Positions 25,984-63,736 of a stretch of DNA of 64,000 bases are shown piece after piece. The DNA lies in contig OZ020491.1 in assembly GCA_963971405.1 (NCBI GenBank), forward strand, positions 13,014,855 through 13,078,854, in the 5' to 3' direction. Position 1 is the first letter of the stretch; each line of letters starts with the position of its first letter. The notes beneath the pieces are model-generated. The model saw only the letters and a program-made list of their open reading frames with translations. It made no database searches and was not told the DNA's origin. The DNA is from Psococerastis gibbosa (Eukaryota; Arthropoda; Insecta; Psocodea; Psocidae). The position numbers and the translations under genes were made by a program.

Positions 25984-26108
25984 TTTTAAATAAAATGCAA
26001 GGTGTAAAGAGAGATTATACTGGAAAATCAAAGCAAACGAACTTGTCATTAGAGGAGCAAGCCCTGTATACCACAATACCACTTTGGAAAGTGCCATATG
26101 AAGAACAG
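25984..26108 (+). CDS. TRMT2A-like (+) exon 1
   Basis: Ends PLWKVPYEEQ before GTATTT, the conserved PLW-PY-EQ segment ahead of the methyltransferase part of TRMT2A. The 5' limit is uncertain: either splicing at AG 25982-25983 or initiation at ATG 25995, which would give a protein starting MQGVKRDYTGK. Confidence 0.6.
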
Positions 26109-29100
26109 GTATTTTGTAAAATTTATAATCCATTGTTAAAGAGTTGTAATTAGTAAAGACTTGAATGTTATTGAAGTAATTCGTGACATGCCTAGGAATT
26201 CCAAATCATTACCTTAATAATATGTGCAAACGTAACGTTTGTATTCCAATAAGCCGACCTCCGTAGATGGTGTTGCACTATCAGTTAGCAGGCAGCTTGA
26301 AACGCGGGGTCTCAATTTCTTAGTATAAATCCTAAAATAATATAAAGTGAAGTGAAGACTGAAGTAGTCTAAAAGCGCTGAAGTTCAAAGTGTTTTTTTA
26401 GGTGAAAGAAAAGAGTGACGCTGCCGTTAATCAAATTCTAAAATTATGCGAGTTAATTCTGACTAGAAATCCAAACCTTGGTGCTTACGTACAAGCGCAG
26501 CAAGAAGCCAATAAAGGCATGATGTGCAGGGTAGATCCCATGATGCGTACTTCAAACCCCAATGGCTACCGGGCGAAATGTGATTTCCGAGTTGGTGTCG
26601 ATGAGGTAACTTAAATATCAGTATACTAGCTACTCAGTACTCAACCTAACCTAACCTTTACAATTATTATTTACGCTATTGTATTGATAATCGGTGCAAT
26701 AAAGAATTATCTTATCTTACCAATTAGAGGATATAGCAAAACTGGGCTTGACAGGATTTACACCCAGGCGCATATGGTCTTTTTAATAAACTCCCGTCTG
26801 AAATCAAGAGGATCGACAAGTTGGACGCCTTCAGGAGTGCTTTGATTAAAATTATACGGTATAGTTGATTGCACGGTTTTTTGTGGTACCACTACATCAA
26901 CTTTACTTTGATCGATGGATTATTGGCAATCATTAGCATTACATGCTACTATCAACAACAACAACAACATCTACGCCTAACCGGGGTGTCGTCTTAGCCG
27001 CTGGACCACAAGCCCCGCCAAGCCCAGTTTTTCTATATCCTCTAATTTTCGGTTATAGCAAAGAGGTTGCCTCTTCAACCAAAGTTAATTTAATGCCAGT
27101 GTTATATATCATACCATATATAATATAATATATGCTAGCTACTTTAGGCGTATTTTGTTACACGAATATTTTACATTTGAACACAAATCCGTATTAAAAG
27201 TTGTACCAATCAGGGAACAGGAGGCAAAGAAGCAGAAAAATGCAACAAAATGAGCGTATTGTGATATTCAAATATTATATTGTAAGCAGTAGACATGAAT
27301 TCAAATTAAAGGCGCCAATCCAAAATTTGAAGTTTGAAATTTGAACTTAAAACAACTAACCAAAAAAAATAAAGAACCAGTAGAAATTGGGCTGTTGGGC
27401 CGTGGTTGATTTGAAAGTTGACTTTCATATCGACTATGGACCATCAGCCCATTTTCTACTGATTCTTTATGACTCTGGCCGCGAAAGCCTTTGCAGTTAC
27501 ATTTTAAAAAATAAACCCTATAAAAAGTCACACCAACAGCATAATATTAACCATTAACACGATAGTCATCACAAATCCAAGATGTCAGCCTAGCGTAAAC
27601 AAAGTTTTGTAAGCCAAAAAACCTAAAAAAAAACTTATCAGAAAAAAAATGAATATCTGATCTACCTCCCGAGCTCGGTTGAAATATGATTGAATACATA
27701 ATACTAATCCTGTTTACTAATCCGAATTAAGAATCGAACATTTAATACGCTCCGCCCCCTTTGGTAACAAAATGCACCAAATCCAGTAATCCAAATTCGA
27801 ATTCGTGTAACAAAATACGCCTTTTATGTGCGCTGTTGCACAGTGATAATTTTATTTCAATTATTGAGTAAAGACAAATTTTCAGACATTTACGTTGGAT
27901 GAGATAATTGTTTTCCAATCAGCTGCTGACTGGTGGGCTATTAAACTGGGTCTTATGTTTTCAGCTTTAAATATGAACTTCGCGACGCGTTCGGCTTGAG
28001 CTCTGTGGTCAGCATATTCCGATTTCTTCTCTTTAAAAATTGTCATTTTTTGTTTTTTATATTCAATTGAACTACTGTATATGGAATATGTACTAATGTG
28101 CTTAATGTAGAATAAAAATAACAAAAACACGCAGTTTTCTTTAAAATAATAAAAAACTCAGTGACAACATGGAACATGGGTGTTTAGTTGTGGGTGTGAG
28201 TCACTGCATTGTCCAACATTTTTCAATGGTTTGTTCGCAGGTAACTAATTTGAGAGTGGTAGGTTTCAAAGGAGCCAAGACTGGAGTATTGAGTGTGCGA
28301 CCTGGTGATAAAATGCTTCATCTGCCCCATCAAATAAAACTAGTTGTCAAGGTATGCTAAAAATTGGATCACTATTTTCTTTTCTTCGCCAATGCGTCAA
28401 GGATTCATTTATAATTTAAAACAGCTTGGTGTTCCCAGATTACTGTCGCTGAATCTGTGGATCCAGTCGAACTGAATTGGGGAACGGCTTGAAGAATTTG
28501 GCCCATTGATTGAAATAACACTCTGAATGACATATCGTCACAAACTTAACCCATAACGGTTTTCTATTTTGCTAGTTTGCCAGTCTAACTAGCTTAGGCC
28601 ATTAATTACAAATATATTCATGTTAGTGCTAACCAAATGATGGCTATTTATCGTAAACCTGGCATATAAACAAAGAATGTAGTTGATGGTTTGACCTCAG
28701 TTTGTTTACTCGTAGCTAATACGCTGCCGTTTTGCAGTTATTTGAAGATTACGTTCGGCTTTCTCCATTACCACCTTACTCACCGGAAAGTAAATCAGGT
28801 TTTTGGCATCACATCATGGTTCGAGTTTCGATGGCTGGAGAGGTAATGTTCAAATTGGAAATATTTGACTGTTTTAGTTTTTATGTATTATTTATGTTTC
28901 TAAAAAACGGCGTACGTGACTCAACAGTTCAGTTACAAAATTCTGCGGCTCTTCTTTTGACGCCGTCTTCAAGTTCGGATATTAATTAAGTTGCCGGAGG
29001 TAAATTTATCCGTCCATCCACCTGTTTATTTATTTTATGATAGAACTGAGAAATATTATATTTTATTTTTTCTGGACATAATAGTGGTCCCTTGCCCAAT

Positions 29101-32100
29101 GCCAACGACCCCATGGATTTTGCGGACACTATTTATATTATTTCCGTATGCATTTTTGCCCATTGGCAAACTGGAATACGTTCTCGATGTCAACCTACGT
29201 CGGCTACAAGCGACAGTGGACAGAGGCAAGATTACCATTTACGCAATGTAAAGATACTACTCTATAGAAAGTTTGATTTTTTAGAAGGCCTGGGCTCAGC
29301 AAGCTAAGGGTGATGATTAGGTATAAAGTGTTTGAGTTGTAATTTGCAAATTATTCTATTTGCTTGTCTTGCAGGTGATGATTTTAGTGGTAATGGTTCC
29401 GGGGAGTTTAACGCAACAACAGCTGCAATACGTCAAGTCCGACCTCACCAATTATTTCTTCCATGGCGATGGCCGCGTAGCTAATGTCCATTCATTGTAT
29501 TATCATCCTTATGATGAAAAGTGAGTCCTTATCGAACAACATAAGCTCTAGGGTTGTTAAGTGCAAAGGGGTGAACATTTTTAAGGCGCCAGTTGCTACT
29601 GGGATAATAATAATCAATTATGGCAAGTTCTAGAATGCATTTAATATTAAAAAAAAAAAAACTATTGCAGCAAAGTGTATTTATAATAAATGTGGTTTTT
29701 GCTGCAGGCTTTAATAATTTCCCATTTGTTTTCACAGGTCATAAAGTATATCTATGTGGTGCAATGTTTTTTTTATTTCATCAATATTTTCGTTATTGGC
29801 TGATTTATTTATTATTATTTTTAGTCAACAAGAAGCTATCCCAAACAATCTAGAGCTTCTGGGTGGCGTGCCGAGGCTAGTCGAGACGGTTATGGGCATT
29901 AACTTCCACATAGGACCCTTTACACACTTCATGAGCAATATGTGTACGTCGCAAAGCTTATACCAAGCGATTTCCGACCTTGTTCAACCGAATCCTAATG
30001 TAACAATAGTTGATATTTGCTCCGGAATCGGATCTGTAGGACTTACTCTTGCTAAGGTACGTATCAATATTTTATACTGTTTTTGATCACGCAGATGAGT
30101 ATTTGAAGGTTTGGATGAGGAATTAGACCAGATGGTCATAAATCCTATATAACGCGAAATTTTAGTCCCCCCTGGTATTTATGTAAGAACTAAGGTACCA
30201 AAAATTTAATTTTTCCTATTATATGATGCATGAAGTAGTCTTCTACAACTTACATGAGCCAAATCTTTAATAACTTGCTTTGTTAATAAATAAATAAAAT
30301 AAAAAGTTAATAAAAACAACTTTTGGTGTGCTCATTTTCTACGTAGCATGTCCTCTTGAAGAAAGCATGCTGCATGTTTGGAATAAAACTAAAATCGACC
30401 AGTTATTTTAGACAAAAATGCCATGATTTTTTTCTTTTTATTTCTCACATGCTAGGCAAATTTTTTTACATTTTATTTTCAGAAATGTCATGAGGTATAT
30501 GCTATTGAGATGCAAGAACAGAATATCGGTGACGGAGTCGTCACAGCTCAAATGAACAACATTGGAAATTTCTCATTCTTGCACGGGCGAGCTGAAGAGC
30601 AGCTGGGGGATCTGCTTAGGTCGCTGGAAGGTCGTGATAGAGAGATCGTCTGCATCTTAGACCCTCCAAAACTTGGAACCAATAAAAGAAGCGCTCTTAC
30701 GGATCTTGGTAATTATTTTGCTACTTTACACGTTCAGGCGCCCGAAGTACAGGAATTTTGCACTTCGAGGAAAGCAGCCTCTTCATAAGCAATGGAAATA
30801 TGTAAAATACGAATTAATAAATTGTTCAATTTTTTACCCATAGGGTAAACGCGCTTAGATGAGACAACCTGATATGTCCTATTCGCAAACGAACCGCTCT
30901 CACTTGGTCTCCCCTGCTCATCTGGTGTTCGAACAGGTTCCATTCCCCCACCCGTGGTTGTATAATTCTCAACTAGTTGCCTCCCGAAGCATTCCACCCT
31001 CTCTGTTTAGAGGTTGTGCTGTATTTTTGAAGTCTGACGGGTTAAAATAAGGGAAGGTAGGTGAATAAAGATTCAGAGCAGAATTTGCCGCGTTGTCGGC
31101 CTTGTCATTACCCTCTATCCCCGTGTGAGATGGACCCTGAGAAATTGTTCATTAACATATCTTCAAGAAACATGGATAGGTATGTATTTTATGTGAAAGC
31201 ACCCATGTCTCTCTTTAATAATGCACGGATAAATCCTTTGCTAAATGCTTGTTTCCTTCTTGTTAGGTTCAGCACTTGGAAATTGGTTTATAGCAAGAGT
31301 GGACAAAACTATAAGATTTATGACATAATTGCTAGCTTACTCGTAATAGTGCGAGTCTACACACCATGCGATTGGAGACCTGTCGAAACTCAACACAGGT
31401 ATTACCTACAGAGGCGACTTATTCGGATACATTCATTGACTTGTTGGTATGCGACGGTAAAGGTAAATGATGATCGAGACCTTCTCCTAAACACCTGCAA
31501 ATGCTGGTTTTTGTCCCACGATTGGAGCAAAGACCAGCACATGCTATTGGCCATTGTCAAACCGTTTTCGTCATCAAAGTGGAGGAAACCCACCATCTTC
31601 AGTAGTATCGAAATATTAGTTCTTGCAACAATCGGACTTTAATTACAGGTTATTATTTTATTAATTACTAAGGTGAAGTCTCTCGACAAAAGCTCACCAT
31701 TTTTTTCAGCATCGGTTGAAATAAAATTAGAATTCATGGCCACGGTGCAGATTTTTGCCCCAATGCGGGTAGTCATCAACAACTATTATTTTTATGCAAA
31801 CGTCAACCTTTTAAAATGATTCAAATGCCATCAGTATAAATTCAATAATTCATGTCACATTGGGGGGGGGGGGGGGGGGAATCCCTAATTTCACGAGAAT
31901 GCACAGTTAAAGTGTCGAAAACATACTTACCTGTTTTTGTTTGTTAGTAAAAGTCAACTAATCTCATTTTGGTCATGACATAGATAGGCATAGATCGTGG
32001 GTTCGAATCCCGCCGAGTCCAGATTTTTCTTAATCCTCTAATTTCGGTTATGACATGGGTGCAGTGAAAAAAAATGTAAAGTGGGGGTGGGTCTGCGCCC

Positions 32101-32445
32101 CACTCCCCTTCCCCCAACCCTATGTACCTCTTTCTAACACAGTATGGAGTTTTATTTGTACAAAAAACGATATTATTAATTGAACAACCGGGATTATACG
32201 ATTTCATTACTTTTTCAGCTTTCCGCATTGTCGATCAGGTGCGACAGTCTCCCTCGGTGTCTCGCTTCGTATATATCTGCAATAACAACAAGGGTCCTGT
32301 GCGGCTGTTCCTCGACTTTTGTGCATCACCACTTGAGCGTGGCAGTTACAAATTCACAGGGCTTCCCTTCGTGCCTGTGCGCATCATCCCTATTGATCTG
32401 GCCCCCCATACTCCTCATTATCAATTGCTGGTCCTTTTCGAACGG
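25984..32445 (+). CDS. TRMT2A-like m5U methyltransferase homologue, plus-strand copy, probable pseudoenzyme
   Basis: Eight exons (25984-26108, 26402-26605, 28241-28351, 28738-28842, 29375-29520, 29825-30056, 30483-30708, 32219-32445) join in one open frame of about 450 residues. They cover the TRAM-like and class I SAM-dependent methyltransferase parts of the TrmA/TRMT2A family, which makes m5U54 in tRNA. The SAM loop DICSGIGSVGLTLA and DPPK are present. Compared from memory with human TRMT2A, FFQVN reads FMSN (Gln to Met), YVSCNP reads YICNNN (Cys one residue early) and PHCEMLILFER reads PHYQLLVLFER (general-base Glu to Gln). No RRM exon is seen upstream, and no C-terminal exon after the donor at 32446. 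Frames and splice sites are intact. Most similar to the minus-strand gene at 41.9-63.7 kb. Confidence 0.8.
26402..26605 (+). CDS. TRMT2A-like (+) exon 2
   Basis: 68 codons, phase 0, from VKEKSDAAVNQILKL to GYRAKCDFRVGVDE. The GYR-KC-F-VG motif is diagnostic of the TRMT2A family (human YRNKCEFLVG). Confidence 0.85.
26720..27130 (-). repeat. SINE S2 copy split by a LINE fragment
   Basis: The minus-strand SINE head is interrupted at 26774-26967 by a 5'-truncated LINE tail on the plus strand: FNKLPSEIKRIDKLDAFRSA, then untranslated sequence ending in (CAA)n. The two SINE halves fit together across the insertion. Confidence 0.6.
27374..27505. mobile_element. Short palindromic Penelope-end element
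   Basis: Diverged copy: AACCAGTAGAAATTGGGCTG, inverted partner, tail GAAAGCCTTTGCAGTTAC. Flanked by AAAAAATAAA on both sides (27364-27373, 27506-27515). Confidence 0.65.
28241..28351 (+). CDS. TRMT2A-like (+) exon 3
   Basis: 37 codons between TTCGCAG and GTATGC, including GVLSVRPGDKMLHLPHQIKL. Matches VEPGDKLIHLPDNMKLAAK in the minus-strand gene. Confidence 0.8.
28738..28842 (+). CDS. TRMT2A-like (+) exon 4
   Basis: 35 codons, LFEDYVRLSPLPPYSPESK and FWHHIMVRVSMAGE. Together with exon 5 it totals 251 nt, exactly the length of the single equivalent exon in the minus-strand gene (49929-50179). Confidence 0.8.
29375..29520 (+). CDS. TRMT2A-like (+) exon 5
   Basis: 146 nt, phase 0 in and phase 2 out, VMILVVMVPGSLTQQQLQYV to NVHSLYYHPYDE. 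The upstream intron is absent from the minus-strand gene. Confidence 0.8.
29825..30056 (+). CDS. TRMT2A-like (+) exon 6, SAM-binding
   Basis: 232 nt, the same length and phase as minus-strand exon 6. Carries GGVPRLVETVMGINFHIGPF, the altered Q-x-N motif (FMSN) and the glycine-rich SAM loop DICSGIGSVGLTLAK. Confidence 0.85.
30165..30354. repeat. Half of foldback family F6, in TRMT2A-like (+) intron
   Basis: TATTATATGATGCATGAAGT to CTACGTAGCATGTCCT, matching one arm of the element at 59780-60174. Confidence 0.55.
30483..30708 (+). CDS. TRMT2A-like (+) exon 7
   Basis: 226 nt, KCHEVYAIEMQEQNIGDG to LDPPKLGTNKRSALTDL. DPP-K/R is the family's motif IV. It is 33 nt longer than the minus-strand exon, with the extra residues after DPPKLG. 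Confidence 0.85.
31330..31470 (+). repeat. Dispersed tRNA-like repeat S3
   Basis: GCGAGTCTACACACCATGCG ... CGGATACATTCATTGA. Related copies at 43690-43796 plus 45423-45480 (split), 49030-49200 (-) and 55350-55920 (broken). The 43.7 kb copy has a box A-like TGGCAAGGTGGTAGCGT, so a SINE is possible. Confidence 0.5.
31862..31879 (+). repeat. G homopolymer
   Basis: Run of about 18 G, one of many long G or C runs in this window. Confidence 0.8.
31975..32060 (+). repeat. SINE S2 fragment
   Basis: ATCGTGGGTTCGAATCCCGC is a textbook box B/T-arm, but no tRNA body precedes it. It continues like the other S2 copies into TAATCCTCTAATTTCGG. Confidence 0.6.
32219..32445 (+). CDS. TRMT2A-like (+) exon 8, catalytic segment
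   Basis: 227 nt, AFRIVDQVRQSPSVSRFVY then ICNNNKG and LPFVPVRIIPIDLAP, ending in LFER before GTAAGT. This exon should carry the catalytic Cys and the general-base Glu; by eye the aligned positions are Asn and Gln. No continuation exon was found downstream. Confidence 0.85.
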
Positions 32446-33142
32446 GTAAGTTACATATTATTCAATCCAATGTATTTAAAAAGGAAAACAAACCAATATT
32501 ATTCTTAAGGGCGCCTTGTATATGAGTTACGGGCTACATTGAGCGAACTGCTACCAGGAGCGCACTGGACACTGAGATTGCCCAGGAACCGACTAAAACA
32601 TTTTGCAACTTTCCTTTGACCTATCTTAGGGACTCGGGACACGATGCGTTTTTCCCAAGCGTTTAGGAAAAACGTTGCGTTTTAAAGTGAATATACACGG
32701 CACCCTGTGAGAAAACGCACCGCTGGACGCGCTATTTGGAATTCGAAATGAACCGATTTCTTGGAGCATGCGTTTTCTGACTTTTCTCGTCGGTTAGGCG
32801 GGCAACATGACAAACACAAAATCCCTGTCTATTTTGCTACTAAAAATGTCTGCTTCCACGATTTGCTTACTATCAAGAGACAAAATGGCGGAGGAACTAT
32901 AACAAGATATTTTGTCTGCATTTTTTGATGCGTTTGAGTCATTTCCGTGCCTCAGGCACACGAACATTCCAATTATTTTAACAAAATTATGAAAAATTAC
33001 TTGGCATTAACTGTAGCTCGTTAATAAGTCTAACATGGGAGTAATCGTACCGATTTAGTAAAAATCGTGATTTAAAACTTGCTGTCACTCATTGTTAAAA
33101 TTAACTTTGTATAGTTTTACGAATAAAATAAAATTAAAAATT

Positions 33143-33176
33143 CACAACCGGTTTCGGCTCACGCCATCGTCAAGTG
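33143..33176 (-). ncRNA. Hammerhead ribozyme-like motif, PLE2 minus arm
   Basis: Mirror of 34314-34347: stem I CAC/GUG, core UUGACGA, extra U, stem II GGC-GUGA-GCC, GAA, stem III ACCGGU. The first core base is U instead of C, so activity is doubtful. Confidence 0.5.
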
Positions 33177-33775
33177 CGATTGAAAACAGATAAAACAAAA
33201 GGTATGCAAGCTAAAACAAAATAAAACTCATTGTCAGGATAACACACAGCATCGCATAAAGTAAACAATTTAAATTGAACAATTAAACATTAACCAATGG
33301 AAGCGCCAACAAGGGGGAACTACTTAAAAAGGTTATGTCATTAAGTAACGATTTGTGTTTAACCATAGCTTCCCTGATCTCAATGGTTTCTAAATTATCA
33401 AGAAGTTTCCCCTTGTTGGCTACATGTAAGATCTTAAAATTATCGAAATCACAGGCATGGTTGTGGGTGTTTATATGTCGGGCAAAGGCGGACTGCGTTT
33501 CACCCACCACAACACAAACATGCGGCCATACACTCCATGATCCATAGACTCTTACATGTACCGTTGACGGTTGTACATTTTAACAAAGAACTTTCAACAA
33601 TTATGGAAATTGCTAATAATAATGGATATCCTGTGAGTCTAGTTAAGAATATTTTAAGGAAACACAGGAATAAGTTGACCCTCTCTTTAGTCTATGGAGC
33701 GAGCCAGACTTCTGAACCAGATGAAGGGTACGTTAAGTTACCATATCTGGGTAGGATTAGTTTGGAGTTGGCCTC

Positions 33776-51400: not shown

Positions 51401-54400
51401 ACTTTTAGAACCCGTAGGTATTTGGCAAAAGTTAGCACTGTAACGACCACAATCACGTGTACAGGCTCTAATAAAATGAAACAAGGTTTGTGTAGCGAGA
51501 ATCGATAGGCCCGCTACAGCGACCCTACCTTAGCAGCCAACTTCATGTTATCTGGCAAATGTATAAGTTTATCGCCAGGCTCCACTCCTAGGATTTTAGT
51601 TTCATTGTCATTGAGACAAAATCCCACGACCGTCTTGCCATCAATGTCTCTGCCTAATGAAACAACAAGAAAACAACCGCGTTAGTCCACCGACTTTCAT
51701 CATTGGGTTGCTCAAAATGTCCACAACCAAATACTATACCCAACAGTGGGAGACTCTTGTAACAAGAGTCATAGAAGGCTGCATTTGTAGTCATTCTGGA
51801 AAGTAAGTTATTCAGAGCGATGAGTCAAACCTGCAAATTTGGCACTCAAAATGTCCGTCAGAACAAGTTGGAGGGCAGGTTGATTGACGGTTACATGACA
51901 ACAAATAACGCCATTGCAACTATCATAATATAACATGTTCTTATTGCTAAAAAAAATAGTAATAAGTATAGTCCACGCAAAATGAGAAAAGTATGGAGTT
52001 GGAATGTTTTGGTACTGTACGACACTGTAACCTTTTCGATTGCACCATTTTGTCATGTCTTGCATCCAATGCATTTCCCCTATACAGATATAATGAAAAC
52101 ACTTAGGACTGTTTTGTTCGAATGTTGTATACAAAACTACAAAGCTTCTGTATTCCATATAAGATGTAAAAAGGGCATTAATGCGGATACGTCGCAAACA
52201 CTATCGTAGGGTGTCATAAAATAAAAAACATGTTCATCTTAGTTTTGGTATACAGTATGTGGCCGTTAACTTTTGGAACTCATCCTCAGTGGCTGATACT
52301 GTTGGGGTCTCAGAACAGCCTCGGAATTAGGGACACGATCTCTCCAAGATATGCGCAGCATTCATCTGCATTTCCACATTACAATAAAAATATTTACATA
52401 GGCTAACTAACACTTGTTTTGTACCTATTTTTCGACATTCCTGTTGGACTCATTTTGTTTTTCGTTGAAACAATAGGGATTTTATAAGGAGAGACTAGTG
52501 GAGCGCATATCAGAATTAATTGAGCCGCAAATATGCCTACTTCTGGAGTAGGCTACCTATATGATAATATTGCATCCCGGTGCTAGTGAAGGCTGGGTGA
52601 GTAACGTGCTTCTTCTATCAACGAAAGCGATGAAGGACTGCAATACAGATTATCATGACAGTGACAGTCTATCTTTTCGAAGAGTAGGTTGAGACACAAT
52701 TGCTTTGGCTGATACAAGATCTGTTGTGGTTATGGACAACGCCCGTAGCCCCGTAGCATAATAGAATGTTAGCAGAAGGTACCTTCAATGCGAAGGCATT
52801 AATGGCAACCAACGGCCTGGATATACCGCAGCCCAAGCCTACGAACCCCGTTCTTATTGCTAAAGACTAATTTTTCGACATTACCTTAATTGCCTAGCAC
52901 ATATGCTGCGGCCGCATGTAATGCCCAAAAAAAGACCAGAGCACTGGAAGAATAGTCCTTTGCTTTTGAGTGGTGAAAGTGACTTCTAAGGTCGGATTTG
53001 TAGAAAACATAGAAACAGGAATAACCATACTCTTAATGTGGCTATTCCACTTGTCAGTTTTTCTTTAATTTTGATAAATGTTGCTGCAACATGCATACAT
53101 ATTTTTACACCTCATTCCACTTGTCTTCAATAATTTACTGACAATTTTTGTTTTCAAGTGGAATAGCCAGCTAACCGTATTTTTAAAGTGTTAACTTCGG
53201 TGCAGTTATTATGGATACGGTAATATATAGTAGGTAACCCAAAAAAAGGACACAGACTGATTTATTATATCTATAAATACGGGAGATTCATCAGAAGAAG
53301 ATGATGAGGAGGATTGGATATAACATTCAGCTTGCAAATGAAAATATGGTTGAATTTAATACAGTGGATACGGTACCTACTTAACTTTTTTAACATTTAA
53401 TTTAGAAGTTTTGACGCAAAGAGTATCAGCCACTGAGGATGTCAGGCCGATTGAGCTCCAAAGACTGTGGCCATTTGGTGTTAGTCACGGCCATTTACTG
53501 TATACCAAAACTAAGATGAACTTATCAATTACTTTATGACACCCTACGATCGTGTTTGCGACGTATCCGCATTGATGCCCTTTTTACAACTAATATGGAA
53601 TACTGAAGCTTTGTAGTTTCGTATACAACATTCGAACAAAACAGTCCTAAGTGTATTCATTATATCTGTATAGGGGAAATGCATTGGATGCAAGGCATAA
53701 CAAAATGGTGCAATCGAAATTGGTACAGTGTCGTACAGTACCAAAACAGTCCAAACCCATACTTTTCTCATTTTGCGTGGACTATACAACTAGATGCATT
53801 TGGTATGCCGCTGAGAATATTTTGAGGACCCCAAGTATTGAAGTACCACAAGTAACATGAATAAAAGTAACAAAGCCCGCTTACTGATACGTACAGTATG
53901 TTTATATGATACAGACAGCACTTTACACCACTGCAACATATCACTCGCTATTGTTCCACAATTATACGTCTTCAAACATGCCTAGTTGTCTACAGCATTT
54001 TTGCCATCAGCTACCTTTACCGGTCTGGTGGGAGTCTCCTTTGAAACTTTATACTCATCGCACATGTCCCAGTTATCTAGGATGAAACCATTGAGGCAGG
54101 AGAACATATCAGAATGATAGAGAGGGTTTTAAAGCAACGGCATGAGCTCAATTACGAAAATTAATCAAAATCCATATGGCACTCTATTTGGCCCAATGGA
54201 CCGGTCACCTTTCAAGGATGCCCTCGACCAGGGCCGCGGCTAGGGCGTGGCAAGCCCAACCAGCAGGCAACCGACCGCAGGGGCGACCTAGGAACAGATG
54301 GTCGGACCAGCTCTCCGAGGATTTGAGAGCCTGCAGCATCCATTTCGACGCATGGAGGGGGTTAGCGGAGAATCGCGCGCTATGGAGGGGCTTGGTGCAA

Positions 54401-57400
54401 CAGGCGAGAGGTCCTCACGGGCCGATGGAGCCACCTTAAGTACATTAGGCCCGGAGTACAAACGCAGATTATACGGCAAGAGGTACGCAGCAGATCTGTC
54501 GAGATACATTGTGTAAAATTTCTTTAGAAAAATACACGGATTAATATTATTACATTGGACCAAATGCATTGGTGCGCAAGGATAGATTCTACTGCAACAG
54601 ACACCCATCAGATCTGTCGAGATATATTGGAGCAAATGCGTTGGTGCTCAAAGGCAGATTCTACGGCAGCAGATACGCAGCAGATCTGCCGAGATGTATT
54701 TGAGCAAATAAATTCGTGCGCAAAGGCAGACTGTACTGCAACAGATTTTAGCTAGGTGTACACACACTGTCAGCAGATCTGCTGCGTACCGGCATGTGTG
54801 CATCGAGCCTTAGCGGACCTCGCAGAGTCCAGCCGCAATGTAATAAAATAGACAAAACTACTCTGCAAGTCGAAAAATTGAAAAAACTATTAAAGTAAAA
54901 AGAAATATATTAAATCCAACCGAGATGACGCGGATTTAATAGACCGTGAAAATTCCCTGTATGTGAGAGATAAGTTTGTTTAAAAAATAGGAAGACAAAA
55001 TTGGTGTCATTGTGAAACATTTTGAAAGAGACACAGTAACAAAGAGACACAGGACCTTGTTTTACCATGGAGGGCACAAATAACAATTTAATATAGCGTC
55101 GGCCTTGTGTCGCCAGATGATTAGTCATGATAATTTGGTAACCCGATTACTGTCACTCATGAATACCCGTAAGCCGGGCAAAGCAGGTCTATCGTTACGG
55201 CACAGATGCTAATGCAGGTCCTGAAAAATCTAAATATCAACAACACTCTCTAAATGGCAATTTTAAGGATGGTACATAAGTTATTACTCAATATTGTTCC
55301 TGTGGCAAACCAATTGGTTGCAATTTAATTTATATCCTTAGCTAGCATAGTTGGTAGCTTGCTCGTATTTGAACGAGTCTCTACACAGTATGCTGTAATA
55401 ACAGGTATTACACCCTCTTCTCGGTCAATCTTTTAGGAAATGTGTGACTGAGCTGTAAATGTAATTGCGCCATTTCATTGTTTTGGACAAGCTTCATTTT
55501 GTAAACACAATTTTTTTTTTTAAATAAACATGTCTAAGAATATGGGACTTAAAAAACCGCTATGGTGGAGACCCCTAGACCCTCTCGTCGCAGATTTAAT
55601 GTAGTCACATTTTTATTGATTCCATTCCTCTGACCAGACCGATTGAGTAACACACAGTATGTGCTCATAAGATAACTGGTGATTATGTAATGCTACATTT
55701 CCAAGCAATCTACTACCGTCCCTTCTCTCTTTGGTTTTTCTTCGTGCAACAAGCTAGGATCCAACCAATTCTAGCACCACATATCTCTTCCTCCTATACA
55801 ATGCGACCGGAGACCTATCGTAACTCGACTCAGGTATTGCCTAATGCCTACACAGATGTGACAGAAATTGTTATTCGGATGCATTCTTATTGTTTATATG
55901 CGACTAATATTGAAATAATAATAATAAATAAAAGGTAACCTGTTTCAAGTTTCAATGCGCTATGAGGGCCATTAATTATGGCTCAGGTACACACGAACGA
56001 TTCGCACCACCATGACTCTGGAAAAATTGTCATTGTAGCATATATGTAGTTGGAAACCAGAGTCAACTTAAGAAAATACCGAGACTGGCGTGAGGCCGAC
56101 CGCACGCATGTGCGCGGTTTCCCCGACACGCACGCTCATAGAAATCATCTGAAGACTCCGTGGTTCGCACCAATCATTGACCATGCCCATTTCTTCCCAT
56201 GACAAATTTCTCTGTGAGTCACCGACGTGCGAATAGTCCGTGTGTACTGGGCCTTAAAAAATGTGAAAAACAGAATGAAAATGATGCCCATAAATTAAGC
56301 GTAGATATTCATAGTCTGTAGCCAGAAGAATCCTGTGGTAGGGATGAGACGCCATTAAATTTATGTAATGGCCAACTATAATTATTTTTTCGTCCATCGG
56401 TTCAAACCCTTGAGTAAGGATTATAAGAACCCTGAGGTTCAATACTTGTAAGTGTTGAAGCCTTTATATCTTCTAATGAAAGCGTAATCCATTATGTAAC
56501 TGGCAAAATTAGTGATATAGTTAACTCAACGTGAACTGACTCCGATGGCTAGGCAGTGGAGTCGACTCCACGACTATTAGTCCGGTCGACTCCAATAAGT
56601 CCAGCTGGACTAAGCTTAGAGTTTCATTGCATGCACACTGTCAGCGAGAGCATGCGCCGGCGGACTCAATGCTGCTAGTAGGTCATCGACATTAACGCGT
56701 GTTCATTGTGCCTACTATGCACCGCATTGTAGGATGAACATCGCGGGCCCTTCAAACTGTAACTGTTCATAGTTCTTATTATATTAATGAATGGCACTAC
56801 AAAATGTCGTATTGTAATTACAAGTTGCTGTCATAAGCTAAGAATGCAACATGGCCTCTAAATAGGCTGAATTCACTCCGTAGCGCACTGGGTGGTACAG
56901 GTGCAGGTAATCGGAATCGGCCTGATGAAGCAAGTTTACAAGCTATGCCGGTGTCAGTCCGGGCTTAAGTCAAGGAAATGTGCGGAATTACACATCGCTA
57001 GCCAACTAGTCTCTAAGCACATAAAAACCCTGGGACAGGTGTCATAATATCAACATAGTTTGGGTTTCACAAGTCCTAGCCCAATAATATGAACAACATA
57101 CCTATTCGGAATGTGCACTTGCTGCGGTAGCCCTCAACATAAGCGCAAGTCAGGACGGGATCAATCTGGAACATGGCCCCGTCGTTTTCGTCACACGCCG
57201 CCTCTGCCCACCCGGCCAACGCAGGGTTCTTCGCACACATTAGACAGTGCAACCGCTTTGACATCAGGACGACATCTTGCCGGGAAAGAAGTTTCTAAAA
57301 AGAAGGCAATGCAATGAGCCACAACTAAGAGAATGATCAAAACCGCTTATTTCTACAATAAACGGGGACTTTATCCTGCTGTGGTAGTAGTATAAAAAGC

Positions 57401-60400
57401 GTTATTTTATTGGACTAGCAATTGAACCGAACGAAACACAGAGTTTGTTCGATTTTATTAGAGGTATTCACGATCCGGTATTTAGCATGCTAAGCCGGGT
57501 TAAATCCAGAATCCCATTCTCGATCGTAAATGAAAACAATGGAAAATTATTTAGCAAGGCACTGAAATGTTGGTGCGCTAAACCCATCGTAAATGTCGAG
57601 AGATTTGCATAAACAACCTTGTACAAGCTTCGTAGAAAATGTACATTTTCGCACCTGAATTTATTATTATTATTCAAAAATTATACGATAAATTGCTTTA
57701 ACCAGATTTTATAGAATAATCATACATCTTAACCGGCAAATAGGCTTTTTTCTTTTATCTTCACATGAATTTTGCTCATTAATACATACGTTTGCTGCCC
57801 CCCCCCCCCCCCCCTCCACACGAGGGGCCTATACACATTGCCCTAATCTGAACTTACTATTGTTTCCGCATTATGACAATACAGTAGAATTTGGGTTAAA
57901 GGGCCGTGGCCGATCAGAAAGAGTGCTTCTAAAGTTTTTTTTAACTTACTTGGAAGCCTTGTTTCAGAACGACCACGGCCCATCAGCACGGATCTGTAAG
58001 ATTATCTGACTCCGTTGGTGTAAGCCTTTGTAAATACATTGTTTCTGCATTAATTTCAGTTTTGGACAAATTGACAACTCACAAACTGCTGAGGCTTTCT
58101 TACCAAGGGCATATTGTTATATTCGATAACATTGCTTAATTTTCAAGAAATAAAGTATAATGAACGACCGGTTCCGGCACTAAAGGATTGTTAGTTTGAC
58201 CATCTTGTGTGAGCCTGGCCTCGATTTACTTATTTATTGGGTATATGCCTTGAGTAGAAATTGTCACCAGTAAGAACGTGCATCCACCTACCAAATAGGA
58301 CTTTAACTAATTTAATTTGGTACTTTCTTATACCTGCAGCTCTATCATGCCGTTTACAGAATAATCGAACACCGCGAATAAGATTAAATTATTCTGAATA
58401 AACCTGAAGATGTTACGAGATAAGAATAGAAGCTTTTAACTTATTAGCTATTGCTAGGCATTGATTCATTTGTTTCTAAATACATGTTGGTAATTTTCAC
58501 AAGAGAGCAAAATGAGAGGAAAATTCAAATTGTATCCAACGCGATGGTTTAAAACAATTCATTAATTCTCGCCTATATTTTTGTGGTGGGTTTCATAATT
58601 CTAAATATGAAATTGAAAAGACGCAACTCATCAACAATAAAATATATTGTTAAATGACATTTTAATAAAATTTATTGTGGATCAGTAGCGTCTATTCATT
58701 TATAAATACTGTATATTTACAAGTACGTTAAAGTTCCACGAAGTCACTTATGATGAGTTTCTAAATTCTTTCTCCCTCAAATATATTAAGAATTATAAAT
58801 TATGTAGGCCTACAAATCTAAGGGAGCAAAAATTAGGAAACTCAGCAAAAAATATAGCTAAAGATCAATTAAATGTTGTGCAATCGAGGCAATTATGCTA
58901 CATTCTTCAATAATTGAAAATTTTCCGTTGCCAACGGACCTTTTTTAGGATGGATTAAAAATAACACGTAAGCTCTGCCATCCACAGAGGACTTTGGCAT
59001 ATGTATGAGGCAGGAATTTACCAATTAGGTTTCCAAGTATGGTTTTCCATGTATTAGATTATACAATGGCTGTGTAAAGATATTGCTGTATCATTTTGTA
59101 CCATAATGTACCATAACAGATAAATAGCAGTGAAAATTTCTTACGAGACACGCTAAGATAAATACCATCAGTACTAGCATCGGAAGGGCATTTATAACAG
59201 TCTAGAAACGCTTATACATGGCTGGGAGGAATACTTTACGGCCGTATTTTAATCAAGAAATTGTTCAAAGGCCTGTTATAAGTTAATGCTCGTGGACAAG
59301 TCGATTGCACAAGGGACGGGAATGCACAAAAGTTCACCCTGATACTAAATTCTCATAAAAGCGCTTAATCGTCTTCCCCAATAAGACTGGAGGGATACCA
59401 AAAAGGAATTTTACTGCGTAAACCCTTCATTGCTGTTAGCTAAGGACATTATGCATGAAAATATTATCTAATTTGTAAGTTTTATGCTATATTTATATTT
59501 GAAGCGATATTGTACTAGGGCCTACACAAGTGACTCATGCCTTTTGCACTTTATGAAACATGAAATTATTCCATTTTATTCATACTGTTCTTGTGCATTT
59601 CACAGCTGTATCACAGCATTTAGATTTTCGTTGTTATAATGTTTCCATGAATTATCAAAATTTTCTGTCGCCTATCAGTTTCACAGAAAAACCACAGCTC
59701 CATAACTAAATAAATCATTGTAGTACTGTGGATTAAATTTGGATAGACCAAATCTTTACAATTTCAATATTATATTAAGAGGACATGCTACGTAGAAAAT
59801 GAGCACCCCAAAATTTGTTGTTTTTATTGACTTTTTATTTTTTATTTAATTAACAAAGCAAGTCATTAAAGATTTGGCTCATGGAAGTTGTAGAAGACTA
59901 CTTCATGCATCATGTAATAGGAAATATTAAATTTTTGGTACCTTAGTTCTTCCATAAATACCAGAACAGACAGGACAGGAGTAAATTTTCGCGTATTCTG
60001 GGATTTTTGGAAGAACTACAAAAACCGAAAAGTAAAAATACCCGATTATATGATGCACGAAGTAGTCATCTACAATTTACATAAGCCAAATTTTTAATAA
60101 CTTGCTGAGTTAATGAAATAAAAAAATGAAAAGTATTTCATTTTGGGGTGCCAATTTTTTACGTAGCATGTCCTAGAAATAGAAATAGAAACCAACCCAT
60201 TTTGGGATGATTCAGGGGCGGACAATTAAAAACAAATCAGTGTATACCTGGTCTTCTTCCGAAACGTTCAACAAGGGCAAAGATTCAGAGAGGATTTCCT
60301 CCTCAAGAGTCAATGGTGCATCTTCTTCCGTCTTAGGTTTTTTCTCTTCTTGATCGTCACCTCCCTCCTCTCGTTTCCTCTTTCTATTTTCCAGGGGCAA

Positions 60401-63400
60401 CCATGGTTCAGCACGTATAGTTTTTCGCTTCCAAATATGGTTGTTTAACAGCCGGATAAGGTTATCCATGGCTTCTTTTTCGTTGAAATAAATTTTCAGT
60501 AAGGTATTTTTCTCATGACTAGTCACTTTCGGAGCTAAAACCTTAAAGGTGGAAGCCAGATACTGCTGAAAGTCCTAAAACAATATGCCTGGTTATTAAT
60601 TTATAGTTATTTACTATTTTATACGTTGTGTGGATGTATATTAAATTTAAATGCACCGTCCTCAATTGTGAAATGCGCGTGCCTGAGACTGCCATCTGCT
60701 TTGGCCAGATGCCTATAATGTATTAAAGTTAGACTCAAGGAATCCTAAGATTAGACAGAATTCATCGTGGCTGCTCCCGGTTGATGTACATCCATGAAAT
60801 GAACCCATAAAATCTAACGGGGCCTTTTCAATCACTGATTTGCGTCATTGCCCCACTAACGTGCTTCAAAGCTAAAAAATATGCCCAAAACAAAAATTAA
60901 ACAATAATTAAATAAATAAAAACTATTTTTAAATAAGGAAAGGGGAGCGTTATCCTAATGGCTAAAACTCAAAGATCCTCCGAATTGCTCAGAATTCGAC
61001 AAACCTGTGGTGTAAGAATTGTTCACTTGCTCACTGCCCAATAAGTTGTCATTAACAGTGAAACAATTAGACTCGAGGGCATGCTTATTGACACACCGAT
61101 TTACAGCTTGGCTGAACTGGACGGTGACAGTGCAACACCCTAGGGGGCTATTTAGGTGTAGTTATAACTCGCAATTTTGTTGCGGTTTGTGACAAAGTCT
61201 CTGTATTTCAGTATTTCCACCAGTCTTAACTAAGCCAACCGCCTAGGCATGTCGTCTTAGTTTTAGGCATCGTCAGAATCAGAGGGGGGAAAAAATGCGT
61301 ATACATAATTAAATAAAATTACATAAAATCCTAACGTTAGATAACTGGCAGTTATTAGGTCAATGTTAAGAGTGTTAGTATGTGTCAGGGGTGTGGAGTA
61401 TTAGAGGGTGGGGGAATGCTATTTCTAATTCCTATAGACTTCAAAGAACTCACTGACAGAACACGGACAAATGTTTAACAATTCTTTTTTAAGCATTTTG
61501 TAGAACAACTTATTGTCCTCAATATCCCTTATTCTGGGTGGTAAAACGTTCAAAAGCCAGTTCCCCATGACTTCGGGAGATTTAAGGGTTAAGGTAAGCC
61601 AACATGATTCTCTGTTTATACAATTACGATTTTTAGTGTTGTGGGCATGTATGTCCCGTGACCTAATGAGGTTGGGATTTGACCTGGCAAATTTCGTTAC
61701 CTCCAATATGTAAAGAGCCGGGAGGGTCAGGATTCCAGAGCTCCGAAACAGCGGTCTACAGGAAACAGTCTGGTCCCTAACACCAGCCATGATCCTAATG
61801 GCCCTTTTTTGTATGAGAAATGCCCTGGTGGCGTCAACCGAGTTGCCCCAGCATATTACTCCATATCTTAGGTGCGACTCGAAGAGCCCATAATAGACCA
61901 ATTTCAAAACAGCAGTACTGACCAGGAAGGATAGGCTCCACAAGAGGAAAGCGCATGAGGTGAGCTTTGCGCAAAGGTTGTTAACATGAGGTTTCCAGTT
62001 GAGAGCCGGATCCATAGTAACTCCCAGCAGTCCTACTTTGTCCCCTAGCCGGACCACGCTACCACCCATTTGCAACTGCGGATCCATGGGCTTATGAAGT
62101 GTTTTGAATACAACAAAATTGGTTTTACCCATATTAAGAATCAGTTTGTTAGCAGCTAGCCAGTCGCTTGCCACCCTAAGCGCCCCATTACAGGCAGCCT
62201 CTATTTCTGTTGCTGATGTGGCACTTAACACGAAATAGTTGTCTTCAGCAAAAATGCCTACAGATGGTCGACCAGGGGCCATGCTCATGCATTTGACATA
62301 ATCGTTTATATAAATGATAAATAATGTAGGGCCAAGGACACTTCCCTGAGGAACTCCTGTTTCAACATCCCTCCATCCCGATTTTTCGCCAACATCAACC
62401 CTTTGCTTCCTACCGAATAGGTAGCTACGGAACCAGTCCCCAGCGACCCTGATTCAGTTTCCTTAGGAGTACCTCATGATCTAGGGTGTCGAAAGCTCTG
62501 CTGAGATCACAGAAGACGCCAGCCGAAAGCTCACCCGATTCGAGGTGCCTAATGATGTCTTGGTACAATTTGACAATGGCGTCTGAGGTAGACCTACCCT
62601 GACGGAATTCAAATTGGCTCATAGAAAGTACTTCATGGTCCCTTAGAAAATCAAGCAATTGAATATTAACAATCTTTTCAATTATTTTTGAAAATGTAGG
62701 CAATAGGCTAATTGGCATGTAACTAGATGGGTCGATTATTGGGCCTTTCTTATAAACAGGTACAACAATTGCTTGCAATGTGGAAAAATACCTGTACTGA
62801 GTGATAGTTAATCATTTCTACCAGCTTCGGTAACAAGGGCTTGTAAGCTGATTTCAGGACCTCTGACGGGAGACCATCCCACCCTGAAGATGTGGTGGTT
62901 TTAAGAGACAGAATAATGCCCCCCACATCATGATCAGTCACGGGTCATCAGTACCAATTTACATTTGTATTCGTCATTAATAATGAAATTACTAATGCTA
63001 TTCTTTAGACTATGTTCAATGCTACTAACTGGGAATTCCTTCATCTTCGTCGCATCCATGGACATTTAATCCTTTGGTAGCCTGGTAGGTTAATGACAGA
63101 ATTGATTTATGACCCATGTAGTAGTAGTAGTATGGTTGGACACAGTCCCAGGCCACGGTGTGGGCCCATAGGACAGACATGTACATTCCGTCAACTTTTC
63201 TGCGGATCGCTTTCACAAACACTACTCTACAACTTACAAAGACGGCTTCTCAAATAGATGCAGCACTTCTAAATGCAAAATTCGCCTATATGTAAAATAC
63301 AGACAATTTTCTTAAAGACAATTTCTTTCTACCCCATGACTATCAACATTCAACACCTTAGTGACCAAGTCCAGTACCAAAGTCCGTGCGCTTAAGTTGT

Positions 63401-63736
63401 TGGTTGGCTACGTTTAAGAGTAGCGTAAAACGTAGGCTACAGTAATCGATGACAATTAAATGAGCTACATGCAAAATATAAATAAGAGCAACTTACAGGG
63501 AGATTTGGGAAACGGGTAACTTTGACTTGAAATGGATATGCGAGATCATCCGCATTTATATCACCATTATTTGTTTGGCTGGCCGGCTCAGTCTGAACAT
63601 CCATGGGGTCACAGGTCTCTGGTTCATTTTCAGTAGCTGCGTCTGCCATTTCAACGTCAAAATCATTATTGACCGGTCCAGCATCTGTTATAGTGGGAGT
63701 TTCTGATTTTCTGTCACGACCACGTCTTGCAAGCAT
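41922..63736 (-). CDS. TRMT2A-like m5U methyltransferase homologue with RRM-like N-terminus and RGG tail, probable pseudoenzyme
   Basis: Eleven exons (63736-63497, 60574-60248, 57294-57102, 51653-51529, 50179-49929, 48918-48687, 47942-47750, 46358-46126, 43373-43139, 42701-42657, 42499-41922) total 2652 nt, an unbroken frame of 883 codons plus stop with every phase matching. Order: acidic N-terminus, RRM-like segment (VKVTRFPNLP...HIWKRKTI), TRAM-like part, methyltransferase fold with DPPRHG, then an RGG/Gly-rich tail ending GGRGNWNRR. The fold is that of tRNA m5U54 methyltransferases. Key sites differ from human TRMT2A recalled from memory: FFQVN to ILKIN, YVSCNP to YVCSNT, HCEMLILFER to NNMVPVLLER, and SAM loop GTGT to GSCG. 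RNA binding via the RRM and RGG tail seems likely; catalysis is doubtful. The link from exon 8 to the tail exons is inferred from phase and the absence of other exons. Confidence 0.8.
42657..42701 (-). CDS. TRMT2A-like (-) exon 10, 45-nt microexon
   Basis: 45 nt between TTTTTAG and GTAAGT, encoding RGGRFVDSSIIGKF. Its phases (1 in, 1 out) bridge exons 9 and 11 exactly. Confidence 0.65.
43139..43373 (-). CDS. TRMT2A-like (-) exon 9, start of RGG tail
   Basis: 235 nt after acceptor GCTTACAG: TDPSTFPPATKPVPELMRRK, a basic stretch, LLRGRGGRGRPAPFPAPP and VGPRRGPGP. Phase 0 entry fits exon 8, phase 1 exit fits exon 10. Local GC is higher than in the surroundings. Confidence 0.65.
43690..43796 (+). 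repeat. S3 repeat, 5' part, interrupted by hAT-like element
   Basis: Continues at 45423-45480 (GGTATCAATCGGATACATTC). The intact order is seen at 49030-49200. Confidence 0.5.
43805..45422. mobile_element. Non-autonomous hAT-like element
   Basis: 1618 bp. Ends CAAGGCCGGCCCGTGG and CACGAGCCGGCCCTG; flanks ATGAAGGC / CTGAAGGT (6 of 8) as an 8-bp duplication. Next to the ends are CGGCGCCCTAGGCGAA and GTTCGCCTATAGGC. No transposase frame. Inside are an M2 MITE and three degenerate tandem units of GGGGCCCGGGGGTCTCCCCC type (44335-44640). Confidence 0.65.
44141..44320. mobile_element. Foldback MITE, family M2, copy c, inside hAT-like element
   Basis: Ends CAGCCCGATCGAGGCGATTA / AATCAGGCTG with CTG target. 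The right end has a small duplication (CAGGCTGCTG). Confidence 0.7.
45423..46125. other. Intron 8 part of the minus-strand gene
   Basis: Holds the rest of the S3 repeat (45423-45480); nothing else recognised apart from a short minus-strand open stretch discussed under rejected items. Confidence 0.4.
46126..46358 (-). CDS. TRMT2A-like (-) exon 8, catalytic segment
   Basis: 233 nt, GTKVISLIRSQPNVDRIIYV then CSNTKTG, LPFLPKRVIPIDVAPFTINN and MVPVLLER. Anchored on Tyr, the catalytic Cys position holds Ser and the general-base Glu position holds Met. Confidence 0.85.
46677..46875. mobile_element. TA-flanked foldback MITE (F3a)
   Basis: 199 bp with ends TAGTCCACGCAAAATGAGAA and TTTTGTGTGGACTA, TA on each side. 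Inverted arms pair over nearly their full length. TA duplication fits Tc1/mariner-type transposition. Confidence 0.7.
47496..47729. mobile_element. Harbinger-like foldback MITE (M1f)
   Basis: Ends GGCGGAAATTCCACCGGCGA and complement; arms of about 100 bp nearly perfect; flanks TAA/TGA. Core decayed to ATATGGTAGCAGATATAAT. Confidence 0.7.
47750..47942 (-). CDS. TRMT2A-like (-) exon 7
   Basis: 193 nt, KCKKAYAVETQEQNVEDALK to LVLILDPPRHGV. DPPR motif IV is intact. A foldback MITE (47496-47729) begins 20 bp past the donor. Confidence 0.85.
48687..48918 (-). CDS. TRMT2A-like (-) exon 6, SAM-binding
   Basis: 232 nt after TTTTCAG, HVAPLTEELTLLMGQPDFVE to DVCAGSCGIAFTLAK. The second Gly of the SAM loop is Cys and the Q-x-N motif reads K-I-N. 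Confidence 0.85.
49030..49200 (-). repeat. S3 repeat copy
   Basis: Reverse of GTGGTAGCGTGCTTGTACGA, GCGATCGGAGACGTGTCGTG and GGATACATTCATTAAATTGT. Confidence 0.5.
49371..49526. mobile_element. Foldback with a hammerhead-like loop remnant
   Basis: Arms of about 57 bp (CATTATAATTCGAGTTAACT...) around a 40-nt loop containing GACAATCTGTCGAAACCGGT and CGTG. The half GAAAC-CGGU-CGUG resembles the 3' half of the PLE2 hammerhead; the CUGANGA half is not conserved. Confidence 0.5.
49929..50179 (-). CDS. TRMT2A-like (-) exon 5
   Basis: 251 nt, RLQEFVRESGKEAYDKKLKR, GVWDNLLVRVAPDGRVMMVV, to LSLYIHVSSG. Corresponds to two exons (105 + 146 nt) in the plus-strand gene. Confidence 0.85.
50640..50805. repeat. 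Imperfect inverted repeat
   Basis: AAAGGACTTCATTCATGGCC paired with GTGAATGAAGTCTTTAAA. Probably an old MITE; no clear ends. Confidence 0.35.
51529..51653 (-). CDS. TRMT2A-like (-) exon 4
   Basis: 125 nt, RDIDGKTVVGFCLNDNETK and VEPGDKLIHLPDNMKLAAK. Phase 1 in, phase 0 out. Confidence 0.85.
51969..53784. mobile_element. TA-flanked element with long inverted ends (F3b)
   Basis: 1816 bp, same tips as F3a (TAGTCCACGCAAAATGAGAA), TA flanks, inverted arms of about 350 bp (51969-52310 and 53410-53784). The interior carries no transposase; it contains the 52325-52365 repeat and a small foldback at 53038-53170 (GGCTATTCCACTTG / CAAGTGGAATAGCC). Confidence 0.65.
54170..54440 (+). mobile_element. LINE ORF2 C-terminal remnant
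   Basis: QWTGHLSRMPSTRAAARAWQ, RPQGRPRNRWSDQLSEDLRA and WRGLVQQARGPHG are the characteristic end of a non-LTR ORF2 (GHxxRM ... GRPRxRWSDQL). 5' truncated; ends near 54440. Confidence 0.6.
54447..54755 (+). repeat. Minisatellite, about 72-bp unit
   Basis: CAGATCTGTCGAGATA-type units start at 54491, 54609 and 54681 (spacing 118 and 72). The first unit has about 46 bp extra. Confidence 0.6.
55350..55920 (+). repeat. S3 repeat copy, broken by inserted sequence
   Basis: First part 55350-55410 (AACGAGTCTCTACACAG), second part 55800-55920 (GCGACCGGAGACCTATCGTA ... CGGATGCATTCTTATTG). The sequence between is unidentified. Confidence 0.4.
55921..57101. other. Intron 3 part of the minus-strand gene
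   Basis: No repeat or exon recognised. A cluster of GTCGACTCC-like words at 56560-56600 is unexplained. Confidence 0.4.
57102..57294 (-). CDS. TRMT2A-like (-) exon 3
   Basis: 193 nt, KLLSRQDVVLMSKRLHCLMC to VEGYRSKCTFRI. The GYRSKCTFRIG motif identifies the family. Ends in phase 1, unlike the plus-strand counterpart. Confidence 0.85.
57892..58037. mobile_element. Short palindromic Penelope-end element, old
   Basis: GGGCCGTGGCCGATCAGAAA, inverted ACGACCACGGCCCATCAGCA, tail TGTAAGCCTTTGTAAATAC. The most diverged of the four. Confidence 0.5.
58038..59779. other. Intron 2 part of the minus-strand gene
   Basis: AT-rich, no exon and no repeat that I can support. Confidence 0.4.
59780..60174. mobile_element. 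Foldback element family F6
   Basis: Ends AGGACATGCTACGTAGAAAA and complement; arms include GAAGTAGTC and AATAACTTGCT. A half copy lies in the plus-strand TRMT2A-like gene at 30165-30354. Confidence 0.65.
60248..60574 (-). CDS. TRMT2A-like (-) exon 2, RRM-like
   Basis: 109 codons from DFQQYLASTFKVLAPKVTSH through IRLLNNHIWKRKTI, a basic then acidic linker (KRKREEGGDDQEEKKPKTEE) and PLLNVSEEDQ. The last motif aligns with PLWKVPYEEQ of the plus-strand gene. Donor is GTATAC. Confidence 0.8.
60575..61239. other. Intron 1 part of the minus-strand gene
   Basis: Nothing recognised. Confidence 0.4.
61240..62945 (-). mobile_element. Non-LTR retrotransposon (Jockey/CR1-type LINE), 5' truncated
   Basis: Reverse transcriptase segments in at least three frames. 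62941-62750: SGWDGLPSEVLKSAYKPLLP. 62778-62425: VVPVYKKGPIIDPSSYMPIS, FEFRQGRSTSDAI and motif A FCDLSRAFDTLDHEVLL. 62288-61425: the palm-to-thumb part, where the usual FADD box reads FAED, then LNMGKTNFVVFK, LGVTMDPALNWKPHV and a C-terminus ending SEFFEVYRN. Sense is the same as the host gene, in its first intron. Frameshifts and the altered catalytic box make it inactive. Confidence 0.75.
62946..63496. other. Intron 1, 5' part, nothing recognised
   Basis: Contains a short GTAGTAGTAGTAG microsatellite at 63118; otherwise nothing. Confidence 0.4.
63497..63736 (-). CDS. TRMT2A-like (-) exon 1
   Basis: 80 codons from the first Met (MLARRGRDRK), rich in Asp, Glu and Asn, ending AYPFQVKVTRFPNLP at donor GTAAGT. 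The first beta strand of the RRM-like domain lies at its end. The frame stays open upstream to about 63775 with a possible acceptor (TGCACAG), so an earlier start cannot be excluded. Confidence 0.75.

Follow-up and report, generated by a model that had tools for sequence, protein, structure and literature searches.

Can a tRNA-modifying enzyme be kept by selection after its chemistry has gone? The question is raised by a 64,000-nucleotide stretch of the genome of the insect Psococerastis gibbosa (GenBank assembly GCA_963971405.1, contig OZ020491.1, positions 13,014,855 to 13,078,854; hereafter the window, meaning this whole stretch), which contains two intact, spliced genes of the TRMT2A family, inverted tail-to-tail so that they face each other. 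TRMT2A is the animal cytosolic methyltransferase that makes 5-methyluridine (m5U) at position 54 of tRNA (m5U54; CG3808 in the fly). We favour the reading, to which we assign a probability of roughly 0.55, that the two genes are old inverted TRMT2A paralogues that kept the family fold, lost the m5U active site and were retained for a non-catalytic role. An initial annotation of the same DNA had described the two genes as open over 8 and 11 exons with consistent phases, had reported three altered signature motifs in each, and had proposed either RNA-binding pseudoenzymes or a new specificity.

Exon pairs were found by comparing stop-to-stop frames of the plus strand between 20 and 37 kb with those of the minus strand between 41.5 and 64 kb, and exon borders were picked for homology, an open reading frame and GT-AG splice sites; the lack of stops and the GT-AG borders thus arise partly by construction. 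Both copies keep open frames in consistent phases, as initially described, with GT-AG at 14/14 modelled introns of the two copies together, and the predicted proteins up to the LFER/LLER motif comprise 455 residues in the plus copy and 598 in the minus copy with no stops (Table 1). With seven introns in each copy and no stops, the test for a processed pseudogene was negative. The coding end has two options per copy, either a GTAAGT directly after LFER/LLER or an in-frame stop 20 (plus) or 3 (minus) codons later. The reported count of 8 exons was borne out for the plus copy, but the 11 given for the minus copy were not reproduced, as it models as 8 coding exons; the 11-exon model was rejected because the RNA-recognition motif (RRM) junction aligns to the fly RRM, the later junctions align to the plus copy and no large segment is missing. 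For introns 5 and 6 of the minus copy, the model uses a GTAAGT donor at the same phase-2 intron position as in the plus copy, and an alternative donor/acceptor pair was rejected because it puts stops into the frame. Five of the seven plus-copy introns have a minus-copy counterpart at an identical aligned codon and in identical phase, the last of the five adjoining an alignment gap and depending on gap placement; of the others, one is shifted and one is present in the plus copy only. Because five introns coincide in codon and phase, the duplication carried introns along and the copies are not retrocopies.

Sequence comparison firmly places both copies, along the length of the protein, as homologues in the TrmA/RumA/TRMT2A m5U methyltransferase family (COG2265, PF05958). 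In a profile-profile comparison with hhalign, a profile led by the minus copy aligned to the bacterial RlmD/RumA and RlmCD family at a probability of 100 (E = 1.2e-39, 421 columns). When both proteins were compared with solved structures using phmmer (E up to 1), RlmCD was matched by each (minus, E = 2.2e-18; plus, E = 3.6e-16). RlmC and RumA structures were matched by both copies, TrmA by the minus copy only (E = 0.003) and archaeal TrmU54 by the plus copy only, with family members making up 7/16 and 7/12 of the sequences listed. The NCBIfam rumA model matched at E = 1.1e-29 (minus) and 4.1e-22 (plus), both below its curated cut-off, and Pfam PF05958 scored 35.1 bits in the minus copy (E = 9.9e-9), above the cut-off of 23, and 12.3 bits in the plus copy, below it. 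The human TRMT2A row was anchored on C538, and the seven other published residue positions checked against it all fit; against this row the identity in the catalytic part is 30.2% for the plus copy and 28.6% for the minus copy.

Active-site residues were read from an alignment of both copies with 80 bacterial relatives, Escherichia coli RumA and E. coli TrmA, whose numbering we use. Two short rows were dropped, leaving 78 relatives and the two E. coli proteins as 80 counted rows of bacterial RlmCD/RumA/TrmA with 21 invariant columns. These rows are not independent (37/80 fetched loci have Streptococcus titles), and RlmCD alone served as query for relatives, a five-row mixed alignment being too diverse for searching. 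The altered motifs of both copies align without gaps to Q-x-N, S-C-N and P-x-T-x-x-x-E of TrmA, RumA and RlmCD, in this sequence alignment as well as in a profile led by the minus copy. All three altered signature motifs of the initial annotation were read again in both copies, and the sequence-based comparison with TrmA, RumA and RlmCD agrees that Gln, Cys and Glu are absent from each: Q190, C324 and E358, unchanged in 80/80 counted rows, are all missing from both copies. In total, seven of the 21 invariant columns are lost in both (F188, Q190, N251, S323, C324, F351, E358), K18 and G222 in the minus copy only and R302 in the plus copy only, leaving 13/21 in the plus and 12/21 in the minus copy. 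Kept by both are Y44, R45, N192, G220, D299, P300, G304, Y321, D349, P352 and T354. Only the Asn of F-x-Q-x-N is retained in either copy, a Cys stands at position 323 in both, and Asn325 is retained in both along with Asp299 and Pro300. By this alignment, a third of the family-invariant residues is gone from both copies, centred on catalysis, and the structural frame stays.

The minus copy has the same layout as TRMT2A, an RRM followed by a RumA-like methyltransferase, but differs, as does the plus copy, in the replacement of seven family-invariant residues including Cys, Glu and Gln. RlmD/RumA and RlmCD, bacterial 23S rRNA m5U methyltransferases whose substrates are rRNA, belong to the same family but have 21/21 invariant residues. 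The human TRMT2A row also keeps 21/21, and of 58 near-invariant columns it keeps 40, compared with 30 in the plus and 27 in the minus copy. According to the published accounts, the catalytic Cys forms the covalent link (PMC7237155, PMC10484741), the Glu acts as base (PMC7237155), and both are conserved in every species analysed there for TRMT2A (PMC7237155).

Table 1. Coordinates within the window of the two TRMT2A-like genes, their exons and their signature motifs (TrmA numbering, except the RRM).
Feature	Coordinates	Strand	Basis
Plus copy, TRMT2A-like gene	25995..32508	+	open frame, GT-AG introns, homology; end = in-frame stop
Plus copy exons	25995-26108, 26402-26605, 28241-28351, 28738-28842, 29375-29520, 29825-30056, 30483-30708, 32219-32445 or to stop at 32508	+	
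HFMSN, F-x-Q-x-N motif: Phe188 to His, Gln190 to Met	29925..29939	+	alignment
SGIGSVG, S-adenosylmethionine (SAM)-binding GxG loop, kept in plus	30021..30041	+	alignment
LDPPKLG, Arg302 to Lys, then a stretch longer than in minus, just before exon end	30657..30708	+	plus/minus alignment
YICNNN, Ser323-Cys324 to Cys-Asn, nucleophile lost	32272..32289	+	alignment
APHTPHYQ, Phe351 to Ala, catalytic Glu358 to Gln	32401..32424	+	alignment
Minus copy, TRMT2A-like gene with RRM	46114..63736	-	open frame, GT-AG introns, homology; end = in-frame stop
Minus copy exons	63736-63497, 60574-60248, 57294-57102, 51653-51529, 50179-49929, 48918-48687, 47942-47750, 46358-46126 or to stop at 46114	-	
RRM RNP1 region NTLLKIYF; fly Phe99/Phe101 positions = Leu/Lys	60508..60485	-	gapless match to 7pv5
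ILKIN, Phe188 to Ile, Gln190 to Lys	48818..48804	-	alignment
AGSCGIA, SAM-binding GxG loop, second Gly (222) to Cys, minus only	48722..48702	-	alignment
YVCSNT, Ser323-Cys324 to Cys-Ser	46305..46288	-	alignment + minus-led profile
APFTINNM, Phe351 to Ala, Glu358 to Met	46170..46147	-	alignment + minus-led profile

Upon comparing the two copies over 427 aligned codons, we find 161 identical residues and proportions of differing sites of 0.515, 0.356 and 0.684 at codon positions 1, 2 and 3, respectively. The proportion of synonymous differences (pS = 0.770) is about that of shuffled codons (0.743), and synonymous sites are therefore saturated and the duplication is old, whereas the proportion of nonsynonymous differences (pN = 0.440) is far below the shuffled value (0.738) and thus indicates purifying selection on the proteins, averaged over both lines. 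Neither copy is an old pseudogene. Because Cys, Glu and Gln are lost in two constrained genes, we consider, with considerable confidence, that m5U formation by the known mechanism is unlikely for both. Regarding the order of events, the same replacement is found in both copies at 3/7 doubly lost positions (N251T, S323C, F351A); assuming independence, the chance of at least three coincident replacements among seven is 0.026, 0.07 or 0.15 for per-site values of 0.1, 0.15 or 0.2. When sites were counted against the human row, the two copies agreed with each other but not with human at 73 sites, with the other groupings at 42 and 37. The shared replacements and the site-pattern counts modestly favour the view that active-site loss preceded duplication.

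At the N-terminus of the minus copy, the best solved structure is the RRM of fly TRMT2A (7pv5), matched without gaps over 68 residues (E = 0.0064). Both fly Phe positions of RNP1 are altered (Table 1), and that of fly Glu64 holds Gln. The published account of the fly RRM holds Phe101 to be especially crucial and conserved in all the structures it analysed, Glu64 to be a minor contributor and Phe99 not to be conserved (PMC10836426). When the plus strand upstream of 25995 was searched with a profile of two sequences, the minus copy and the fly protein, no RRM turned up (best frame, E = 4.6).

Under the reading we favour, the common ancestor of both copies would already have lost catalysis, both copies would have been retained for a role without catalysis, the likeliest being to bind the T-arm, tRNA or a related RNA as folding chaperone or regulator, and a canonical TRMT2A elsewhere would make m5U54. 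The proposal of pseudoenzymes holds up well: each copy lacks the nucleophile, the base and the Gln of F-x-Q-x-N, and neither an S-C-N nor a Glu motif is present in any other exon of the window; RNA binding is plausible, but is weakened by the loss of the RNP1 aromatic in the minus copy and by the lack of an RRM found for the plus copy. We favour a binding or chaperone role and place that of a partner or scaffold second, and the chaperone role itself, argued by analogy, falls a little short of even odds. A tRNA chaperone role has been ascribed to E. coli TrmA, and tRNA-Ser variants are rescued by yeast Trm2 that lacks catalytic activity (PMC11301382); E. coli viability is said to need the TrmA protein and not its activity (PMC7912444). 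The human TRMT2A "catalytic death mutant" with eight altered residues (E76, K104, F113, K242, F409, Q411, D510, C538) binds tRNA at 428 nM, compared with 306 nM for the wild type, and hardly methylates (PMC10484741). The equivalents of F409, Q411 and C538 are replaced in both copies here, and E581 is lost as well, whereas D510 (TrmA D299) is kept in both; if a constant fly-human offset of 12 holds, the RRM positions E76, K104 and F113 also appear replaced in the minus copy, by Gln, Thr and Lys. Because this human mutant with similar changes still binds tRNA, tRNA binding may survive in these copies. The nearest precedent is bovine TRMT2B, a retained gene with natural loss of the catalytic Cys, for which m5U54 is reported absent from bovine mitochondrial tRNAs (PMC7237155); that case, however, is a Cys to Tyr change in the mitochondrial paralogue, whereas here most of the active site is gone, twice, in TRMT2A-type genes.

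Several points weigh against this reading. For the human single mutants C538A and E581A, methylation could reportedly still be measured, and the Michaelis constant of C538A was doubled (PMC10484741); because C538A still methylates, loss of the Cys alone need not abolish activity in human TRMT2A. Both copies are nevertheless closer to the almost inactive eight-residue mutant than to the Cys-only mutant. With the profile of active bacterial relatives, the plus catalytic exon goes unmatched up to E = 5 and the minus one is reached at no better than E = 1.1, which points to far divergence of those exons, and the catalytic-exon alignment rests on whole-protein comparisons. The key RNP1 aromatic, equivalent to Phe101, is lost from the minus RRM, and given this loss and no plus RRM found, tRNA binding may be weakened. 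The plus copy is nine residues longer (net) than the minus copy after DPP (alignment gap of 5 + 4); a lost donor site may lie behind this exon extension, and the longer exon could be early decay. Additionally, a ratio of nonsynonymous to synonymous change (dN/dS) from two copies averages the lines, so that recent loss of one is possible and very recent decay may be compatible with the data. A fuller picture, in which two selectively maintained TRMT2A pseudoenzymes of one lineage, already inactive in their ancestor, would share out a non-catalytic tRNA-elbow function (the RRM being altered in one and apparently absent from the other), with cytosolic m5U54 possibly made by another copy or missing, is tentative and, taken whole, doubtful.

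The apparent losses could instead reflect an error in the gene models, with real transcripts using other exons that hold the canonical residues: the models were computed from DNA alone, and the coding end has two options in each copy. The initial annotation had allowed for exon borders that restore Cys and Glu, and a search of the window by motif and profile found no canonical alternative exon. No [YF][VILA][SAT]CN or [FL]PxTxHxE motif occurs in any of its six frames, F-x-Q-x-N occurs ten times in six frames with 0/10 at a place matched by the family profile, and the active-family profile (E up to 5) matches eight frames in which modelled exons lie, as well as a single further frame, 59850-59927 (+), at E = 0.62. 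We regard such an error as the least probable of the alternatives. New chemistry, with the Cys at 323 as a relocated nucleophile for a different reaction, is also highly improbable. Cys323 in both copies, the kept Asp299, Pro300 and Asn325 and the normal SAM loop of the plus copy would fit it, but both copies lack the base Glu, Gln190 and Phe188, the GxG loop is altered in the minus copy, and moving the Cys by one residue would be expected to point its side chain out of the pocket. The new specificity offered by the initial annotation thus finds no positive support, and a Cys shifted by one is unlikely to act as nucleophile, since both copies also lack the base Glu, the Gln and two Phe that are invariant in the family.

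Recent disablement, in which a constrained ancestor left two copies and at least one of them has begun to drift towards a pseudogene, is more credible than these two, although improbable. It would account for catalytic replacements that differ between the copies (Met/Lys, Asn/Ser, Gln/Met), for the extra residues after DPP in the plus copy and for the loss of the second Gly of GxG in the minus copy. However, when neutral drift was simulated at 0.05 per site, the minus frame (598 codons) acquired 3.7 stops on average and stayed stop-free in 4 percent of 200 runs, and at 0.10 it stayed so in 0 runs, compared with the 0 stops observed in 455 and 598 codons; the GT-AG borders, partly by construction, and the concentration of losses on catalytic motifs while structural ones stay also speak against it. 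The strongest of the alternatives, though still unlikely, is that each copy is a catalytically dead subunit or regulator of an active enzyme and not an RNA chaperone, as Trm6 is for Trm61 and METTL14 for METTL3. Purifying selection together with catalytic loss and the kept SAM loop of the plus copy agree with such a role, and the lost RNP1 aromatic and the lack of a plus RRM found argue against RNA binding as the retained role; on the other side, no partner is known, and TrmA is described as monomeric (PMC7912444).

In the open literature searched, mostly by titles and abstracts, no description of inactive TRMT2A copies was found, and catalytic loss would be new for TRMT2A-type genes, given the conservation of Cys and Glu in all species analysed in PMC7237155. 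A duty of tRNA-elbow enzymes beyond methylation has so far been argued, in the sources consulted, from laboratory mutants and one natural case, bovine TRMT2B. If two pseudoenzymes have indeed been conserved here, these naturally inactive TRMT2A copies would allow tests of a non-catalytic role that need no engineered mutants, and would reveal the surfaces that evolution retains once the chemistry is not needed.

Within the introns of the two genes, we also observe probable traces of mobile elements. Intron 1 of the minus copy holds two overlapping RVT_1 reverse-transcriptase frames (61425-62811, -), and two non-coding stretches, 30153-30408 (+, plus intron 6) and 59759-60076 (-, minus intron 2), are 89-93 percent alike in translated pieces and are probably copies of one short mobile element. 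Between the genes lies an inverted repeat of 416 bases (98 percent, 33086-34404). A frame that overlaps this repeat (33761-34207) matches GIY-YIG, a domain that occurs in Penelope-like elements, with a score of 22.6 bits, which is at the curated cut-off. Another inverted repeat, of 1299 bases and 100 percent complementary (38002-41436), has nested copies and arms that flank a 200-base N gap (39641-39840); a mobile element that inserted recently and an artefact of assembly are both possible origins. Viral contigs, scanned once with the minus protein, yielded no relative of it. An ankyrin-repeat gene lies upstream of the plus copy (10224-20875, +; frames 10224-10478, 15224-15544, 17243-17494 and 20588-20875), with Pfam Ank matches in all four frames, the third below the curated cut-off and the last ending near 20.9 kb; it presumably resembles ANKRD29. 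Finally, a tRNA-like sequence at 9998-10069 (-) scores 30.5 bits, compared with the Rfam gathering score of 29.

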